NCBI GenBank assembly: GCA_902530685.1
Contig: CACAAZ010000014.1
Span: forward strand, 1-35,321
Direction: 5' to 3'
DNA: 35,321 nt
From: an uncultured Alphaproteobacteria bacterium
GTDB taxonomy: Bacteria > Pseudomonadota > Alphaproteobacteria > HIMB59 > GCA-002718135
Both the position numbers and the translations under genes were made by a program. This document shows, piece after piece, positions 20,680 to 31,561 of this stretch; position 1 is the stretch's first letter; the number at the start of each line of letters is the position of its first letter. The notes beneath the pieces were generated by a model. That model was not told the origin of the DNA. It searched no databases and saw nothing but the letters and a program-made list of their open reading frames with translations.

Positions 20680-21459
20680 TTATAACTCTAGTTCTTTAGC
20701 GAGGTCTCCGATTTGTGCACCCCCGGCCATTAATCTCTTTACATCCTCACCACCTAGATCATTTGCTAACCCACTACCTATAACTTCTCCTAGACTTAAG
20801 AATGTATATCTATCGGCAATAAGTCTTGCGTGTATTTCATTATGTGTAATTAGAATGATTGCTATGTTGCCAAGTCTTTGAACTTTTTTTATTGTTTTTA
20901 AAACTTCCATTTGTTGTTTTTGACCAAGAGCGGAAGTTGGTTCATCTAAGATTAATATTTTTGCTCCAAAATAAATTGCTCTAGCTATTGCTAAAGTTTG
21001 TCTTTGTCCTCCTGACATGGTTCCTACTTTTTGATTAGGATCAGCGATATTTATTCCAATTTTAGACATTTCTTCAATTGTTATTTTATGCATTTCATCC
21101 ATTTGCATAAGGCCAAACGGTCCTGGTCCTTTTTTTAATTCTCTTCCTAAGAAAAAATTTAATGTAACAGAGGTTAAATTATTTAGAGCAAGATCTTGAT
21201 ATACTGTTCCAATACCTGCATCAGAGGCTTGTCTAGGAGAAGCAAATTTTACAAATTCTCCATCTACTTTAATTTGACCTTTAGTTGCAGGATGCACACC
21301 AGATAAAACTTTAATTAAGGTTGATTTACCTGCACCATTATCACCAAGTAATGCATGCACTTCCCCAGGATATACGTCGAGTGATACTCCATTGAGCGCT
21401 GTAAAACTTCCAAATTTTTTTACCAAATCTTTAATTTCGATTAGAGGCTTTTTATTCAT
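20680..21459 (-). CDS. Sugar ABC importer ATP-binding protein (system 1)
   Basis: Single-domain ATPase of 259 residues, FrcA-like. Walker A GDNGAGKST (39-47), signature MSGGQ (148-152), Walker B ending LDE (171-173), and H206. The ATG overlaps the permease stop by one base. Sequence differs enough from the system 2 ATPase that the two are separate importers, not a recent duplication. Confidence 0.93.
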   Translation of the reverse strand: MNKKPLIEIKDLVKKFGSFTALNGVSLDVYPGEVHALLGDNGAGKSTLIKVLSGVHPATKGQIKVDGEFVKFASPRQASDAGIGTVYQDLALNNLTSVTLNFFLGRELKKGPGPFGLMQMDEMHKITIEEMSKIGINIADPNQKVGTMSGGQRQTLAIARAIYFGAKILILDEPTSALGQKQQMEVLKTIKKVQRLGNIAIILITHNEIHARLIADRYTFLSLGEVIGSGLANDLGGEDVKRLMAGGAQIGDLAKELEL

Positions 21460-23051
21460 TAAATACTACCTACAATTCTTCTTCTTATATTTTCATTTGT
21501 TAAAGCAGCAGTTACCAGCACAGCACCTAAGAAGACACGATAAAAGGAGCCATCTACACCAGGAATATAAAAGAATGCTTCTTTAGCAATACCAAATATT
21601 ACAGCTCCAAGCATTATGCCCATAATTGATCCAAAGCCTCCAGTAAGAACTACACCACCGATCACGGCCGCAGCAATTGCTTCTAATTCTTTTAAATTTC
21701 CTTTAGCAGTGTCAGCAGTATTTACCTCAAATACTTGGCAAGCAGCAAAAATTGTTGCACAAAAAGCTGTAAACATAAAAAGGCCAATTTTTACTTTGTT
21801 CGTGGGTACACCATTTGCCTGAGCAGCAGAAAGATTGCCACCTGTCGAATATATCCAATTACCTACTTGTGTTTTACTTAAAACAAAGTAACAAATTATA
21901 GCAAGTAAAACCCAAATCATAACGCATGAATAAAATCCTGGAGCAAATTTGTTTCCAAACATATTTACATTCCAGTCTGCTGTAAAATATAACCAATCAA
22001 AAAAAGGCTCTAAAATGTCGCCGCCAAAAAAGTTGGCTACTGGTCTAGCTGTTATAAAGGTATCTATATAAGCTCTTGCTAAATCTAACTCTGTAACTGA
22101 TTTCGCAGCAATTTCTGGAACTTGAATACCAGCATCTATCTTTTTTTGTATAGCCTCAACCATCGATTCATTTCCAGATTTTTGAGCATTTTCTAAAGTT
22201 TTTTGCATAGTATCTACCATTTTTTGTTTTTGTAAAAGAGTTTTGGTAATTGCTACTTTCTCATTAATGTATGTTAATTGTTCTGTAAGTTTCTCAACTG
22301 TACTTTGAGGTGCTGTTTTCAAAATTTCTAATAATTCATCATTAGATAATGCTTTAGCTGCATCTCTTTCTATTTCACCGTGACCAGGAACATTAATTAT
22401 ATTTTTTATATCTGGAAGATCGGTTACTGTTGTTGATCCTGCCGTTTGATCAGGAGCTTTATTAAATGCTCTGTAGCAGACTTCAGTTAAACCTCTTAAA
22501 AAAAATAATCCACCTAAGGTAACTATAAAAGAAGCAATTCCACTTTTTACAATTACATACCCTTGAAACCAACCGAATGACAATGTCATTACTAGAGTAA
22601 TTAATAAAGCTGTTAGTGGCGATACATTAGTTATTTCAAAAATTTTGAGTCCTTCAAAATGAAAGCCTCCTTCAAAAGAAATATAAGGTATTACAATAGC
22701 AAAACCCCATTTAAGAATAATTGCCATTGCTCCACCAGCAAATCCAATCATTGATCCAACACTCAAATCAAATTCACCAGCGATAATCAACATACCAGCA
22801 CCAAGAGCTACAATCCCTAGTTGGGAAATGACACGAAAATTATTTCTTATTCCAAGTGCATTAAAACCTTCTCCTGCAAAAGGGTTTAAAGAAAACTCAC
22901 CCTGTGGAATTGAAAAATAACCGAGCATTGCAAAAAGAAGCAGCATAACACCTAGAGGCCCAATTTCTGGTCTTGCAAAGATTTTAGAATACCATCTACT
23001 TGGTTTTAAGCGATCAGACTCTTGTCTTTTTACTTCTTGGCTGGAATTCAT
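21459..23051 (-). CDS. Sugar ABC importer permease with large inserted domain (system 1)
   Basis: RbsC/FrcC-family permease, but 530 residues instead of about 330. Conserved parts are GEFDLSVGSMIGF (near 92-104), FIVTLGGLFFLRGL (175-188), the coupling loop KTQVGNWIYSTGGN (393-406), and AAVIGGVVLTGGFGS (461-475). Between the last transmembrane segment before residue about 195 and the next at about 375 lies an insertion of roughly 170 residues. Its middle (about 235-306) is Gln/Lys/Glu-rich and looks helical or coiled-coil. By family topology this loop faces the periplasm. The N-terminus also has an extra charged segment of 25 residues. No frameshift is seen. Confidence 0.9.
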   Translation of the reverse strand: MNSSQEVKRQESDRLKPSRWYSKIFARPEIGPLGVMLLLFAMLGYFSIPQGEFSLNPFAGEGFNALGIRNNFRVISQLGIVALGAGMLIIAGEFDLSVGSMIGFAGGAMAIILKWGFAIVIPYISFEGGFHFEGLKIFEITNVSPLTALLITLVMTLSFGWFQGYVIVKSGIASFIVTLGGLFFLRGLTEVCYRAFNKAPDQTAGSTTVTDLPDIKNIINVPGHGEIERDAAKALSNDELLEILKTAPQSTVEKLTEQLTYINEKVAITKTLLQKQKMVDTMQKTLENAQKSGNESMVEAIQKKIDAGIQVPEIAAKSVTELDLARAYIDTFITARPVANFFGGDILEPFFDWLYFTADWNVNMFGNKFAPGFYSCVMIWVLLAIICYFVLSKTQVGNWIYSTGGNLSAAQANGVPTNKVKIGLFMFTAFCATIFAACQVFEVNTADTAKGNLKELEAIAAAVIGGVVLTGGFGSIMGIMLGAVIFGIAKEAFFYIPGVDGSFYRVFLGAVLVTAALTNENIRRRIVGSI

Positions 23052-26030: not shown

Positions 26031-26351
26031 CTATATATTTAGATAAAGGCTACCTTTGTCTTCTATAATATCGAATATTTTTAAAGGAATTTGATCTAGA
26101 TCTGAAGTAGGATCTCCAGATACTATACTGAAAGTATTTCCGCAACTTGGACACTCAAGTTCTTCTCCTTCGATACTTGATTCACTTAATAAAGATCGGT
26201 CTGCACATGTACAATTACCCTGTGTTGCAAAAAAACCAGCCTCGATTCGAAATATTGCATAGTTGATTTCATCGTGTTCAAAATTTTCAACAGTGCCAAT
26301 TTCTATATCTTCAACTTCTCCAATCAACAGCGGTTCAAAATCATCATTCAT
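26031..26351 (-). CDS. Rieske-type ferredoxin with four cysteines (MocE-like)
   Basis: Small soluble protein of 106 residues with the fold pattern of Rieske ferredoxins such as MocE or the NdoA/BphF type. Normal Rieske proteins use CxH and CxxH. Here the motifs are C47-T-C49 and C67-P-S-C70-G, so both ligand histidines are cysteine (TGT and TGC codons, checked in the bases). The spacing, the GNxxF after the second motif, and the terminal KIFDIIEDKGSLYL strands fit the family. It could hold a Cys4 [2Fe-2S] cluster, or instead zinc or another centre. No oxygenase or reductase partner is adjacent. It follows lldD after 63 AT-rich bases and precedes iolD. Confidence 0.75.
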   Translation of the reverse strand: MNDDFEPLLIGEVEDIEIGTVENFEHDEINYAIFRIEAGFFATQGNCTCADRSLLSESSIEGEELECPSCGNTFSIVSGDPTSDLDQIPLKIFDIIEDKGSLYLNI

Positions 26352-26414: not shown

Positions 26415-27569
26415 TTATCTGAATCTTAAATTTTTACGTGACAATTCTGAGATATTATTTACCCCCATTAATTTCATGTCTCTTTCAATTTCATTTCTCA
26501 TATTAGTCATTGCTCTATCAACACCTTTTTGTCCACCAGCTGCAAGAGCATAAAGGTACATTCTACCTCCCGAACATGCTTTTGCACCTAAGGAGAGTGC
26601 TTTTAAAACATGGGTACCACGTCTAATACCACCTTCACATATTACATCTATTTTATCGCCAACTGCATCTACTATTTCAGCAAGTTGATCAAATGGAGAT
26701 CTGGAACCATCTAGTTGTCTACCACCATGATTGGATATCATTATTGATGTCGCTCCAACGTCTACTGCCCTTTTTGCATCTTCAACTGACATGACCCCTT
26801 TTATAGCAAATTGACGACCCCATTGTTTATTAATAGCTTCAACATCTTTCCAACTTAGCGAATTATCTAACATTTTAGTAAAATAATCTCCAATTGTAGT
26901 CATAACTTTAGTTCCCTCACTTATATGATCTTTTAAATTACTTAGTTCCCATTTTGGTCTTATAAAATAATTTAATGCCCACATTGGATGAATAGCAAAA
27001 CTAAGTATGCTACTTAGTTTTAATTTCATAGGTATTGTAAACCCTGTATACAAATCTCTTTCTCTGTTACCTCCTACAGCTGTATCGACCGTTACTGCCA
27101 TAGCCTCAAAATTAGACTCTTTACACCTCTCTATAAGCGCATTATTTAATCCTTTGTCTTTATGAACATATAGTTGAAATAGTTTTGGGGAGCTGACTAA
27201 ATTTGAAATTTCCTCAATACTTGCAGTTCCAAGTGAGGAAATACCAAACATAGTTCCATGTTTTTCAGCTGCTTTTGCAACAGCTATTTCTCCTTCATGA
27301 TGAAACAATCTTTGGAGAGCTGTTGGGGCACAATATATTGGAATGTCTAATTTTTGCCCCATGACTGTTGTTGACATATCTACTTTATCAACCCCACTTA
27401 AGACATTTGGAACTAAATCACATTTCTCAAATGCTTCCGTATTTCTTTTGTAAGTTATTTCATCATCTGCTGCACCATCTATGTAATGAAAAATTGGTCC
27501 AGGTAATTTCTTTTTAGCTAGCTTTCTAAAATCTTTTACATTGTGACAGTTGTTAATACTACCTATCAT
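26415..27569 (-). CDS. lldD: FMN-dependent L-lactate dehydrogenase / 2-hydroxyacid oxidase
   Basis: Oxidises an L-2-hydroxyacid, most likely L-lactate, to the 2-oxo acid, passing electrons to quinone or oxygen. It has 384 residues. YIDGAADDE (29-37) is the family start, the catalytic H281 is in SNHGGRQLDG, and GIRRGTHVLKAL binds the FMN phosphate. The start overlaps the FAH-hydrolase stop by one base. It follows genes that would produce L-lactate plus pyruvate from a diketo acid, which supports lactate as substrate. Glycolate or mandelate oxidases share the fold. Confidence 0.87.
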   Translation of the reverse strand: MIGSINNCHNVKDFRKLAKKKLPGPIFHYIDGAADDEITYKRNTEAFEKCDLVPNVLSGVDKVDMSTTVMGQKLDIPIYCAPTALQRLFHHEGEIAVAKAAEKHGTMFGISSLGTASIEEISNLVSSPKLFQLYVHKDKGLNNALIERCKESNFEAMAVTVDTAVGGNRERDLYTGFTIPMKLKLSSILSFAIHPMWALNYFIRPKWELSNLKDHISEGTKVMTTIGDYFTKMLDNSLSWKDVEAINKQWGRQFAIKGVMSVEDAKRAVDVGATSIMISNHGGRQLDGSRSPFDQLAEIVDAVGDKIDVICEGGIRRGTHVLKALSLGAKACSGGRMYLYALAAGGQKGVDRAMTNMRNEIERDMKLMGVNNISELSRKNLRFR

Positions 27570-28417
27570 TATGCAGAGATTGTTTTTTGTCTTTGTTCTC
27601 CAAGACCTTCTATTCCAAGCTTTATTTCATCACCCGCTTTTAAGAATACTTGTGGGTTCATACCCATTCCAACTCCTGGTGGTGTACCAGTAGATATAAC
27701 ATCACCTGGTTGTAATGACATAAACTGGCTTAGGTAACTAATTAAAAAATTAACACCATAAACCATTGTATTAGTTGACCCATCCTGCATTCTTTGCCCA
27801 TTAACATCTAACCACATTTTAAGATTTTGTGGATCTGGAACTTCATCAGGAGTAACTAAATATGGCCCAATTGGTCCAAACGTGTCACAGGATTTACCCT
27901 TGACCCATTGACCTGAGTGTTCAATTTGAAATTCTCTTTCACTTAAGTCGTTAATTACACAATATCCAGCTATGTGTGATTGAGACTCTTTTTCTGAAAT
28001 ATATTTTGCTTCTTTTCCTATTACAACTCCAAGCTCAACTTCCCAATCAGATTTTACAGATTTTTTTGGAATTTCAACGTCGTCATTAGGACCAATAATT
28101 GCACTTGTTGCTTTAAAAAAAATTACAGGTTCAGGAGGTACTTCTAGACCCGACTCTTTTGCATGGTCTGCATAATTTAAGCCAATGCAAATAAATTTAC
28201 CTATACTTTTTTTACAAACACAAGGTGCTATACCATCACTATTATCAACTTTAGGTAATGAATTAATATCTGCATTTTTTGCTTCAGTTAATTTTTCAAC
28301 AGTAACATTTTCACTATCCCAATCTTTTACTATGCTTGAGGCATCACGTATATTACCATCTATATCTAAAATTCCTGGCTTCACTTCGTTTCCAATTCTA
28401 TATCTAATCGTTTTCAT
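27569..28417 (-). CDS. FAH-family hydrolase, probable 2,4-diketo-3-deoxy-L-fuconate hydrolase
   Basis: Fumarylacetoacetate hydrolase family, 282 residues. Motifs: GLNYADHAKESG, PVIFFKATSAIIGP, the metal-binding SDWEVELGVVIG and NDLSEREFQ. I moved the start from 28429 to the ATG at 28417, because MKTIRYRIGNEVKPGILD fits the family N-terminus and gives the TAATG coupling with the preceding SDR seen elsewhere here. Its context (FucD, SDR, LldD) points to splitting a diketo-deoxy acid into pyruvate and L-lactate, as in the Xanthomonas-type L-fucose route. That substrate is inferred. Confidence 0.85.
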   Translation of the reverse strand: MKTIRYRIGNEVKPGILDIDGNIRDASSIVKDWDSENVTVEKLTEAKNADINSLPKVDNSDGIAPCVCKKSIGKFICIGLNYADHAKESGLEVPPEPVIFFKATSAIIGPNDDVEIPKKSVKSDWEVELGVVIGKEAKYISEKESQSHIAGYCVINDLSEREFQIEHSGQWVKGKSCDTFGPIGPYLVTPDEVPDPQNLKMWLDVNGQRMQDGSTNTMVYGVNFLISYLSQFMSLQPGDVISTGTPPGVGMGMNPQVFLKAGDEIKLGIEGLGEQRQKTISA

Positions 28418-29154
28418 TATAAGGTCCATCCTCCATCTATTAGGTTCAAAGTTCCGGTCACAAAATCAGATTCATCACTTGCTAAATAAGTTGCAAGGGA
28501 TGCAATTTCTTCTGGTTGAGCAAGCCTGCCCATGGCTTGTCTTGCAATAAAATCTTCTCTAGCTTTTATTGGATCTTCAGCCATATTTACTCTTCCTGTC
28601 CATGAAGGTGTTTCAACTGTGCCAGGTAAAATTGCATTACATCTAATACCTTGTTTTACATAGTCTATAGCTAAAGCTTTCACAAACCCGTTTAAAGCTG
28701 CTTTGGTTACACCGTAGATAAATCTATTTGGCGCACCTTTGACACTTGATGCTGCAGAAGATACGATAATTATATTTCCTTTACCTTTTGTTATCATTTT
28801 AGGTAATAAATTGTAACTCATTAGGTAAGCTGAGTATATATTAACATCGATTGATCTTTTAAATTCATCATCATTGCAATCCATTAATGTGCCATGATGA
28901 ACGAAACCAACAGCATGAAATAGAATGTCAACATCATCTAAGCTTGTACAGAATTTTTCTACTGCTATTTTATCAGTTGCATCAAGTTGCTGGATTTGAA
29001 TATCTGAATTTTCTTTAGCTAACTCAGCTAATTTTTCTTTATTAATATCTGTAGCAGTAACTAAAGCACCTTCCTTTGCAAAATTAATTGCTGTTGCTTT
29101 TCCAATGCCTTGTGCTGCAGCTGTTACAATTATTTTTTTATCTTTCAGTCTCAT
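28417..29154 (-). CDS. SDR, probable 2-keto-3-deoxy-L-fuconate dehydrogenase
   Basis: Short-chain dehydrogenase of 245 residues. The cofactor motif is TAAAQGIG (11-18), the active site is S133, Y147 and K151, and Asp36 (TATDIN) favours NAD. GFVHHGTLMDC is a characteristic stretch shared with the BDH2 / 2-keto-3-deoxy-L-fuconate dehydrogenase group. It overlaps the fuconate dehydratase gene by ATGA and the hydrolase gene by TAATG. The gene order equals the pathway order, so oxidation of 2-keto-3-deoxy-L-fuconate at C4 is the likely reaction. Confidence 0.87.
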   Translation of the reverse strand: MRLKDKKIIVTAAAQGIGKATAINFAKEGALVTATDINKEKLAELAKENSDIQIQQLDATDKIAVEKFCTSLDDVDILFHAVGFVHHGTLMDCNDDEFKRSIDVNIYSAYLMSYNLLPKMITKGKGNIIIVSSAASSVKGAPNRFIYGVTKAALNGFVKALAIDYVKQGIRCNAILPGTVETPSWTGRVNMAEDPIKAREDFIARQAMGRLAQPEEIASLATYLASDESDFVTGTLNLIDGGWTL

Positions 29155-30452
29155 ATTTGATTTTTCCAGTATTCTCCATTAGGAAAAGAAAACTCATTAA
29201 CAGACTTTTCTTTCATTTCAATAGAATATCCATGATCCATAGGCGGCATATAATTACCATCTACAATTTTGCATGGGTAAATAAAGTGCTCGTGAAGACT
29301 ATCCTGATACTCAACTACTTTATTATCTTTGGAGCCATTAATTAATACATAATCAATCATGCATAAATGTTGTACATATTCACAAAGACCAACTCCACCC
29401 GCATGTGGGAAAACTGGTACATTAAATTTATGCGCCATAAGTAAAACTGTTAGTATTTCATTGATACTTCCTAAACGACAGCTATCCAATTGGCAAATAT
29501 TCATCGCACCAGACTCTAAGAACTGTTTAAACATAATTCTACCTCCACATGCTTCTCCAGTTGCCAGTCTTACATCACCAACTTCCTTTTTTATTTTTAC
29601 AAAACCCAAAACATCATCTGGACTAGTTGGCTCTTCAACAAAAAATAAATTAAATTTTTTATACGCATTTATATGTCTTATTGATTGTTCAATGCTCCAT
29701 TGTTGGTTGGCATCAACCATTATGAAACATTCTTCTCCAATCGTCTTTCTTATTAGATCTAATCTTTTTACGTCTGCTTCTAAATCTAAACCAACTTTAA
29801 TTTTAAAGTGCCTCCATCCCATTGAAATATAACGGTTACAAAGCTCAATAATTTTATCATCACTGTAGCCCAACCAGCCAGCAGCTGTAGTGTAAGATGG
29901 ATAACCTTCATTTAAAATTGTTTTTATTCTTTCATTTTTTTTTGCTTGATTATTTTTAAGAATTTTTAATGCTTCTTCTGGAGTTAAAACATCTTCAATA
30001 TATTTAAAAGTTAACCAAGAAAGAATTTTTTCTGGTTCAGTATCTACAATAAATTTCCAAAGTGGTTTTTTATTTTTTTTTGCTATTAAATCCCATAAGC
30101 AATTAAATATAGCAGCAACTGCCATATGGACGACGCCTTTTTCTGGGCCTAGCCATCTTAATTGGCTGTGATCTACACACTTAAACCATAGTTTTCCTAT
30201 GTCATTTTCTAAATTATCTAAAGACATATTTTCAAAGATCGGAAAAAAATGTTTGATACATTCTGCAACAATGTCGTTCCCTTTTCCAATTGTAAAAGCA
30301 ATACCGTAACCCTTTAAATTTTTATCATCAGTATATGCTGTTACATAAGTAGCTGAATAATCAGGATCTGTATGAATTGCGTCTGAACCAGTTAAATCTT
30401 TGGATGTTGGGAACCTTACATCATTAACTGTAAAATTTATTATCTTGGTCAT
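29151..30452 (-). CDS. fucD: L-fuconate dehydratase
   Basis: Enolase-superfamily acid-sugar dehydratase, 433 residues, removing water from L-fuconate to give 2-keto-3-deoxy-L-fuconate. The family-typical start DLTGSDAIHTDPDYSATY separates it from other dehydratases. Catalytic K217 and K219 (KIK), metal ligands D247, E273 or E274, and E300, and H350 (PHAGGVGLCEY) are present. L-galactonate and D-arabinonate are known side substrates of the family. L-fucose dehydrogenase and fuconolactonase genes are not in the window. Confidence 0.93.
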   Translation of the reverse strand: MTKIINFTVNDVRFPTSKDLTGSDAIHTDPDYSATYVTAYTDDKNLKGYGIAFTIGKGNDIVAECIKHFFPIFENMSLDNLENDIGKLWFKCVDHSQLRWLGPEKGVVHMAVAAIFNCLWDLIAKKNKKPLWKFIVDTEPEKILSWLTFKYIEDVLTPEEALKILKNNQAKKNERIKTILNEGYPSYTTAAGWLGYSDDKIIELCNRYISMGWRHFKIKVGLDLEADVKRLDLIRKTIGEECFIMVDANQQWSIEQSIRHINAYKKFNLFFVEEPTSPDDVLGFVKIKKEVGDVRLATGEACGGRIMFKQFLESGAMNICQLDSCRLGSINEILTVLLMAHKFNVPVFPHAGGVGLCEYVQHLCMIDYVLINGSKDNKVVEYQDSLHEHFIYPCKIVDGNYMPPMDHGYSIEMKEKSVNEFSFPNGEYWKNQI

Positions 30453-30454
30453 GT

Positions 30455-31561
30455 TTATATTCTTTTGAAAGTTGTATTATCAATGAAATCCCAATCTAGA
30501 TCAATGCCTAAACCAGGGTCATTTGGTAAATGCGCAAAACCATCTTCAACTTTAATTGATTTTTTTAATCCAAAATTAAAATAATCATATGGTACTAGAA
30601 CTTCAAAAAATTCAGAATTTTTTATAGCTGCACAACAATGCAGATTAACTAATTCTAAAGGATGATAAATTGCCGTATGAATTTCACATTGAACTCCAAA
30701 ACTTTCTGCTAAATGTGCTGTCTTCATTGTAGCAGTTATTCCACCACTCCATGAAACATCTGCTCTCACCATATCAACAACTCTAGTAGATATACATTCT
30801 GCAACACTATATGGATGTTTAGCTATAACTTCAGTTCCAATTATAGGGATATCTAATATCCTAGTTAATTCTCTTAAATTATGAAAATTTTCATCAAATA
30901 ATGGTTCTTCATACCAATAATAATTTAATTTTTCTAACTCTCTTCCAAATCGTAAAGCTTGTTCAAATGTATATGGTGCAACAGGATCACTCATTAACTT
31001 AAAATTATTACCTACAGCTTCACGTGTTTTTCTATGAGCTTCTAAATCAAAATCATATTTTCCTGGGGGATGTAATTTATAAGCATTAAATCCTCTTTCT
31101 TTATATTCAACAGCTTCCTTTGCATAAGCTTCAGGAGTATCAAGCACAAGAGAACTTCCGTAAATTGGTACTTTATCTCTATAAGCACCCAAGTATTTGT
31201 AGAGTGGTTGACCAGCTTGCATTGATGATAATAACCAACAATTAATGTCAAAGGGACCATAACTATAAATAGGAGCGTGATTCCACCAACGATCAGCCGT
31301 TCTGTATTCGTGCCAATGCTGTTCACGATACAATGGATCCCGACCTATAAAAAAAGGTTTAAATATTGAATTTGCTATCTCGCCTGCCATTTCTGCTCCA
31401 CGTCCAGCAAAACCAAAAGTGGAGCTAGATAAACCCTCATCAGTATGAAAGGTAATAACAAGAAACTCTAAATCAGATTTTTTACCATCGCGCATTTCAG
31501 AATCTTTCATCACAGGTTCTTTATGGCGACACATACGAATTTCTATATCTTTAATTTTCAT
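30455..31561 (-). CDS. Mandelate-racemase/muconate-lactonizing family protein
   Basis: Second enolase-superfamily enzyme, 368 residues, probably an acid-sugar dehydratase or epimerase. Metal ligands are D192, E218 or E219, and E244. The D268-H295 dyad is present. The usual KxK pair reads K162-L-H164, so the second basic residue is histidine. This puts it outside the classic galactonate or mandelate KxK pattern. It overlaps the CoA-transferase gene by ATGA and ends 2 bases before fucD. Its place between a CoA-transferase and FucD is unusual, and its substrate is unknown. Confidence 0.85.
   Translation of the reverse strand: MKIKDIEIRMCRHKEPVMKDSEMRDGKKSDLEFLVITFHTDEGLSSSTFGFAGRGAEMAGEIANSIFKPFFIGRDPLYREQHWHEYRTADRWWNHAPIYSYGPFDINCWLLSSMQAGQPLYKYLGAYRDKVPIYGSSLVLDTPEAYAKEAVEYKERGFNAYKLHPPGKYDFDLEAHRKTREAVGNNFKLMSDPVAPYTFEQALRFGRELEKLNYYWYEEPLFDENFHNLRELTRILDIPIIGTEVIAKHPYSVAECISTRVVDMVRADVSWSGGITATMKTAHLAESFGVQCEIHTAIYHPLELVNLHCCAAIKNSEFFEVLVPYDYFNFGLKKSIKVEDGFAHLPNDPGLGIDLDWDFIDNTTFKRI

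Follow-up and report, generated by a model that had tools for sequence, protein, structure and literature searches.

The window, as we term the whole stretch of 35,321 nucleotides that was analysed, encodes a Rieske-fold protein in which both histidine ligands of the metal site are replaced by cysteine. A pair of histidine ligands is the defining feature of Rieske proteins and governs their potential and proton coupling. The protein, for which we use the working name R4C, represents a conserved and natural four-cysteine Rieske-fold family; elsewhere our searches met a four-cysteine site only as a laboratory mutant, and the open-access literature that we searched contained no natural four-cysteine Rieske protein. 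Our preferred reading, to which we assign a probability of roughly 45%, is that R4C holds an all-thiolate [2Fe-2S] cluster on its four cysteines. In the literature found, the four-cysteine scaffold has been tried only by mutagenesis and its direct version largely failed; the R4C clade offers ready sequences with which to ask how the loop geometry accepts four thiolates and which metal results, and two coexisting alleles provide a population-level handle on the purpose of the site. The gene and its two ligand loops are positioned as follows:

26031..26351, minus strand: R4C, a 106-aa Rieske-fold protein with a four-cysteine site (from profile, PDB match and predicted model)
26205..26213, minus strand: codons of loop 1, Cys47-Thr48-Cys49, with Cys49 in place of the first ligand histidine (alignment)
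26142..26153, minus strand: codons of loop 2, Cys67-Pro-Ser-Cys70, with Cys70 in place of the second ligand histidine (alignment)

R4C (MNDDFEPLL...GNCTCADRSLLSESSIEGEELECPSCGNTF...YLNI, 106 aa) has a pI of 4.05, its composition including 24 aspartate and glutamate residues versus four lysines and arginines. Cysteine occurs at residues 47, 49, 67 and 70 only, all four being ligand positions (CTC-x17-CPSC), and the sole histidine, residue 26, lies outside the positions of the metal site. The protein scores 22.1 bits against the Pfam Rieske profile PF00355, above the curated cut-off of 20.3, and its best sequence match in the PDB (phmmer, E = 4e-11) is CarAc, whose ligand histidines fall on Cys49 and Cys70 in the alignment; a search of PHROGs returned nothing useful. 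The AlphaFold2 model, predicted from an alignment of 25 orthologues, has a pLDDT of 83 and resembles complete Rieske ferredoxins (Foldseek TM 0.81–0.86; VIA Z 15.8, rmsd 1.9 over 100 residues). This modelled likeness spans the whole domain of the ferredoxins of dioxygenases, namely CarAc (1vck), BphA3 (2e4p) and the toluene dioxygenase ferredoxin (3dqy), with a TM of 0.81–0.86 and a Z of about 15–16; unlike R4C, however, these proteins have two cysteines and two histidines and are encoded together with an oxygenase. The CxH...CxxH ligand set (two cysteines plus two histidines) is absent from R4C and its orthologues, all of which have CxC...CxxC. An earlier note on this DNA had described CTC and CPSC motifs instead of CTH and CPxH, with Rieske spacing retained. 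The motifs are real, all four ligand positions being cysteine by alignment, and the C-x-C-x17-C-x2-C spacing does lie inside the Rieske range, with x17 also in BphA3 and x16 in the MocE-like relatives.

In order to establish how widely the four-cysteine site is conserved, orthologues were surveyed in 101 genomes, of which 61 belong to the genus of the window (g1, its own genome included) and 40 to the sister family. Counting matches of at least 57% identity, R4C orthologues were found in 49 of the 61 g1 genomes (57–75% identity), and when 84,980 species genomes were scanned, 64 loci turned up, every one in the same clade. One genome of this clade, AG-891-K05 (locus L092), is the reference of family GCA-002718135 in order HIMB59 (PMC10734472); we infer that the clade corresponds to AEGEAN-169 bacterioplankton, the naming being drawn from that one record (PMC10734472). 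Cys47, Cys49, Cys67 and Cys70 are invariant in all 47 distinct orthologue sequences, as are Gly45 and Gly71, and the pattern is always CxC-x17-CxxC. By comparison, position 48 is free to be N, P, Y, T, H, L, V or S, the pair inside the CxxC of loop 2 may be PS, PT, VG, AS or others, and the cysteine codons switch between TGT and TGC. The median dN/dS of 0.10 over 348 pairs indicates purifying selection.

The family exists as two deep types, A and B, recognised by comparing near-identical loci (26031–26351 of the window and L033–L096). Type B accounts for 20 of the 64 loci and has two further cysteines, Cys42 and Cys81, present in 20/20 type B sequences and in none of type A. Seven more fixed differences separate the types (in the table of fixed differences the type A row L077 enters with an offset; its four cysteines are intact in the orthologue alignments), which are about 69% identical in DNA. 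The four-cysteine site is kept in both.

These data bear on whether the site could be an isolated mutation, a pseudogene or a sequencing artefact. Relatives found outside the R4C family all carry CxH...CxxH, as such an accident would predict; nevertheless, 47 distinct four-cysteine orthologues, mostly from independent single-cell genomes, together with the low dN/dS, reduce its probability to practically nil. Decay is excluded because the four-cysteine site is conserved under purifying selection, in agreement with the view of the earlier note that the change is not decay. As an outcome that would count against its reading, that note had named homologues that are mostly CxH, with this copy as an isolated mutant: the first half describes the proteins outside the family, whereas the second is contradicted by a whole clade with four cysteines.

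The R4C profile was further run on genomes from the class (385) and from the phylum (398). The nearest relatives beyond the orthologues, about 46 in number, all have CxH-x16-CxxH, and among them is a two-histidine MocE-like paralogue in the window's own genome (G000:C9:6622-6930). No four-cysteine relative beyond the R4C family was detected in these class and phylum genomes, nor did the scan for close relatives in the 84,980 species genomes give a four-cysteine match outside the clade, the reach of both searches being such that four-cysteine proteins in other Rieske subfamilies would escape. As far as searched, the R4C family thus appears limited to one marine family. One distant match, on a plasmid, carries the annotation of an oxygenase ferredoxin subunit.

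The R4C sequences form a single clade (support 100/100) in a 58-sequence tree, placed inside the two-histidine MocE-like group with the exact sister left as an open fork; the stem of the clade measures 2.2 changes per site. Because the clade is single and nested among two-histidine MocE-like relatives, both His-to-Cys changes fell on this one long stem branch and were kept thereafter. No intermediate between the two-histidine and the four-cysteine site was found among the relatives searched, and a change in one step and a change in two are indistinguishable in these data. R4C has in common with the MocE-family ferredoxins (TIGR02377) and their MocE-like relatives the fold, the length, the acidity and a GFFATxGxC...ECP framework, albeit its score against TIGR02377 is 31.3 bits, well under the cut-off of 136.15. 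The ligands differ (CxH...CxxH with x16 in the MocE-like proteins, CxC...CxxC with x17 in R4C), and so does the gene neighbourhood: in two members of the genus MocE adjoins ferredoxin-reductase and desaturase-like genes, which R4C does not. At L141:6886-10860 and L144:6440-11844, the two-histidine MocE-like paralogue is clustered with a ferredoxin-reductase-like gene and desaturase-like genes; the latter are presumably of the MocD type, and the cluster might encode a system for rhizopine-type oxidation in these open-ocean bacteria.

Which metal the four thiolates hold can be approached through engineered variants of the Sulfolobus protein ARF. Two of these, H44C/H64C and H44I/K45C/H64C, place four cysteines on a Rieske scaffold, as in R4C (PMC2946596, its reference 153), but they are laboratory-made, whereas R4C is natural and conserved, with loop 1 still CxC. 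The scaffold can tolerate an extra thiolate, because ARF H64C holds a low-potential [2Fe-2S] cluster on three cysteines and one histidine; the H44C variant fails (PMC2946596). In H44C/H64C, the closest engineered equivalent of R4C, cluster assembly largely failed (PMC2946596), and a [2Fe-2S] cluster in R4C is therefore not to be assumed. Loop 1 of R4C, CxC, is the same as in the failed double mutant. The long R4C branch possibly leaves room for a compensating change relative to the ARF double mutant. R4C has one more residue between loops 1 and 2 than the MocE-like group, a length also seen in the two-histidine BphA3.

Also counting against [2Fe-2S] is loop 2 (CPxCG), which reads like a knuckle of rubredoxin or of a zinc protein. 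The four thiolates might instead hold a single ion, either structural zinc or rubredoxin-like iron, and we regard this as a real, if tentative, possibility. The geometry of the Rieske loops is that of rubredoxin and zinc-ribbon loops, and the redesigned ARF H44I/K45C/H64C, in which loop 1 is CxxC, carries a rubredoxin-like mononuclear Fe(Cys)4 site (PMC2946596). Many R4C sequences have CP[ST]CG as loop 2, which yields weak matches to the zinc ribbons LysW (15.3 bits, cut-off 27) and Trm112 (14.8 bits, cut-off 22). These scores lie far under the curated cut-offs and concern the region of this single loop, and R4C was not accepted as a member of a zinc-ribbon family. Moreover, the two CxxC knuckles of the rubredoxin type are not present, loop 1 being CxC in every orthologue rather than the CxxC of rubredoxins and zinc ribbons.

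A Rieske fold may also do without metal, as in NirD, which has kept the fold without the ligands. R4C could accordingly be metal-free, its cysteines working as a redox switch of the disulfide or thiol kind. The predicted R4C model resembles such ligand-free folds, and the two additional fixed cysteines of type B would suit a switch; against the NirD profile (TIGR02378), however, the protein scores 29.3 bits (cut-off 74.65). It is precisely the four ligand positions that are invariant, with the chelating loops kept, and a ligand-free fold would be expected to need neither, so that we consider a metal-free R4C improbable. NEET proteins, which bind [2Fe-2S] with three cysteines and one histidine in a different fold, are comparable to R4C in the non-standard mix of cysteine and histidine at a [2Fe-2S] site. 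Returning to the preferred four-cysteine [2Fe-2S] site, we infer that R4C binds metal, has a potential lower than that of a Rieske protein and acts in electron transfer.

The genes upstream of R4C, all on its strand, are the following:

26415..27569, minus strand: FMN-dependent alpha-hydroxyacid (L-lactate) dehydrogenase-like gene, lldD (PF01070, E 6e-130)
27569..28429, minus strand: FAH-family hydrolase (best match 2,4-didehydro-3-deoxy-L-rhamnonate hydrolase, 390 bits, cut-off 500)
28417..29154, minus strand: SDR dehydrogenase of the R4C operon (profile matches, gene order)
29151..30452, minus strand: enolase-superfamily sugar-acid dehydratase-like gene of the R4C operon (profile matches, gene order)
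30455..31561, minus strand: second enolase-superfamily sugar-acid dehydratase-like gene of the R4C operon (profile matches, gene order)

R4C is the last gene of this deoxysugar-acid operon, 63 bp downstream of lldD in the window. Nearly all loci show the order dehydratases, SDR, FAH hydrolase, lldD and R4C on one strand, with R4C starting 42–63 bp after lldD; no terminator was found between the two genes, although this is a weak test in AT-rich DNA. FAH and LldD match families of sugar-acid pathways, albeit below the curated cut-offs (for LldD, 312 bits versus 376 for PRK11197), and the substrate, putatively a deoxysugar acid, would yield lactate and pyruvate. The earlier note had placed R4C between an L-lactate dehydrogenase gene and iolD with no oxygenase nearby, and for the immediate neighbourhood both statements hold. 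R4C goes with the lldD side, however. Beyond R4C, nearly all loci have an oppositely oriented D-2-hydroxyacid dehydrogenase gene followed by iolD; L033/G028, a near relative, and the window itself have this dehydrogenase gene at another place, and therefore iolD adjoins R4C in both. Since this opposite-strand gene separates R4C from iolD in most relatives, the association is incidental and iolD was rejected as a true partner.

The gene lldD encodes the only flavin redox enzyme of the operon by profile annotation, and R4C could be the dedicated electron acceptor of this FMN lactate dehydrogenase and of nothing else, an idea compatible with either metal reading. The two genes are constantly adjacent. 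Of the 61 g1 genomes, 49 have both and the other 12 have neither, a co-occurrence that is trivial in part, since the genes lie side by side and the genomes are incomplete. Other genomes speak against such exclusivity. In the sister family, lldD (65–82% identical) occurs without R4C in the same operon (L146) as well as in a rhamnose-type operon (L147, L150–L152); the latter operon includes a kinase and a 693-aa SDR-containing protein. Conversely, in L076/G841, a MAG from an oxygen-minimum zone, FAH is followed directly by R4C (L076:1247-2493), lldD being absent from both the operon and the assembly, and in G001/L065 a TGA breaks lldD while R4C is intact. No lldD or FAH residue was convincingly associated with R4C type (best p of 0.016 in 15 tests and of 0.10 in 101). 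An obligate partnership is weakened by all of these observations, and a dedicated one appears doubtful; because the sister family has lldD without R4C and one genome R4C without lldD, the link is weak and only plausible.

In our proposal, R4C belongs among the MocE-like Rieske-fold ferredoxins, and both its ligand histidines would have been exchanged for cysteine in the ancestor of the marine alphaproteobacterial family GCA-002718135 (order HIMB59 / AEGEAN-169). The exchange would have created an all-thiolate metal site that selection then kept, most likely a four-cysteine [2Fe-2S] cluster with a potential below that of a Rieske cluster. R4C is probably an electron carrier, as its fold and its acidity, similar to that of soluble ferredoxins, suggest; small and soluble, it would move single electrons for the deoxysugar-acid catabolic operon, exchanging them in either direction with a flavoprotein. 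The identity of the latter is a guess, LldD next door and the reductase serving MocE being the candidates.

The two types of R4C are distributed over the loci in an unexpected way. L093 (type B) and L043 (type A) are 99.3% identical in lldD and 69.5% in R4C, while L093 and L092, both of type B, are 100% identical in R4C and 94.5% in lldD. The stretch in which A and B diverge runs from about the start codon to just past the stop codon, and by sequence comparison the R4C alleles are swapped at the ORF boundaries between chromosomes whose flanks can be up to 99% identical. Mapped on the lldD tree, R4C type requires 16 changes, at least nine of them forced by well-supported branches, which is close to the mean of 17 for shuffled labels, and the allele is therefore almost unlinked from lldD. 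It is conceivable, though in our judgement rather unlikely as a whole, that ocean bacteria evolved a natural all-cysteine [2Fe-2S] cluster on the Rieske scaffold once and have since maintained it in two ancient allelic forms, 4-Cys and 6-Cys, which are swapped gene-exactly among otherwise near-identical chromosomes, as if diversifying or balancing selection acted on the properties of the cluster. Exchanged, sharply bounded stretches of divergence also occur in the adjacent D-2-hydroxyacid dehydrogenase gene (L043/L061, L050/L080), and the region may therefore simply recombine often; the slot between lldD and iolD may be a recombination hotspot.

Elsewhere in the window, positions 21459–23051 encode an ABC sugar permease of 530 aa, related permeases being about 330 aa long. 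The protein has a central, charged and coiled-coil-like insert of very roughly 130–150 residues, which matches PspA/IM30 weakly.
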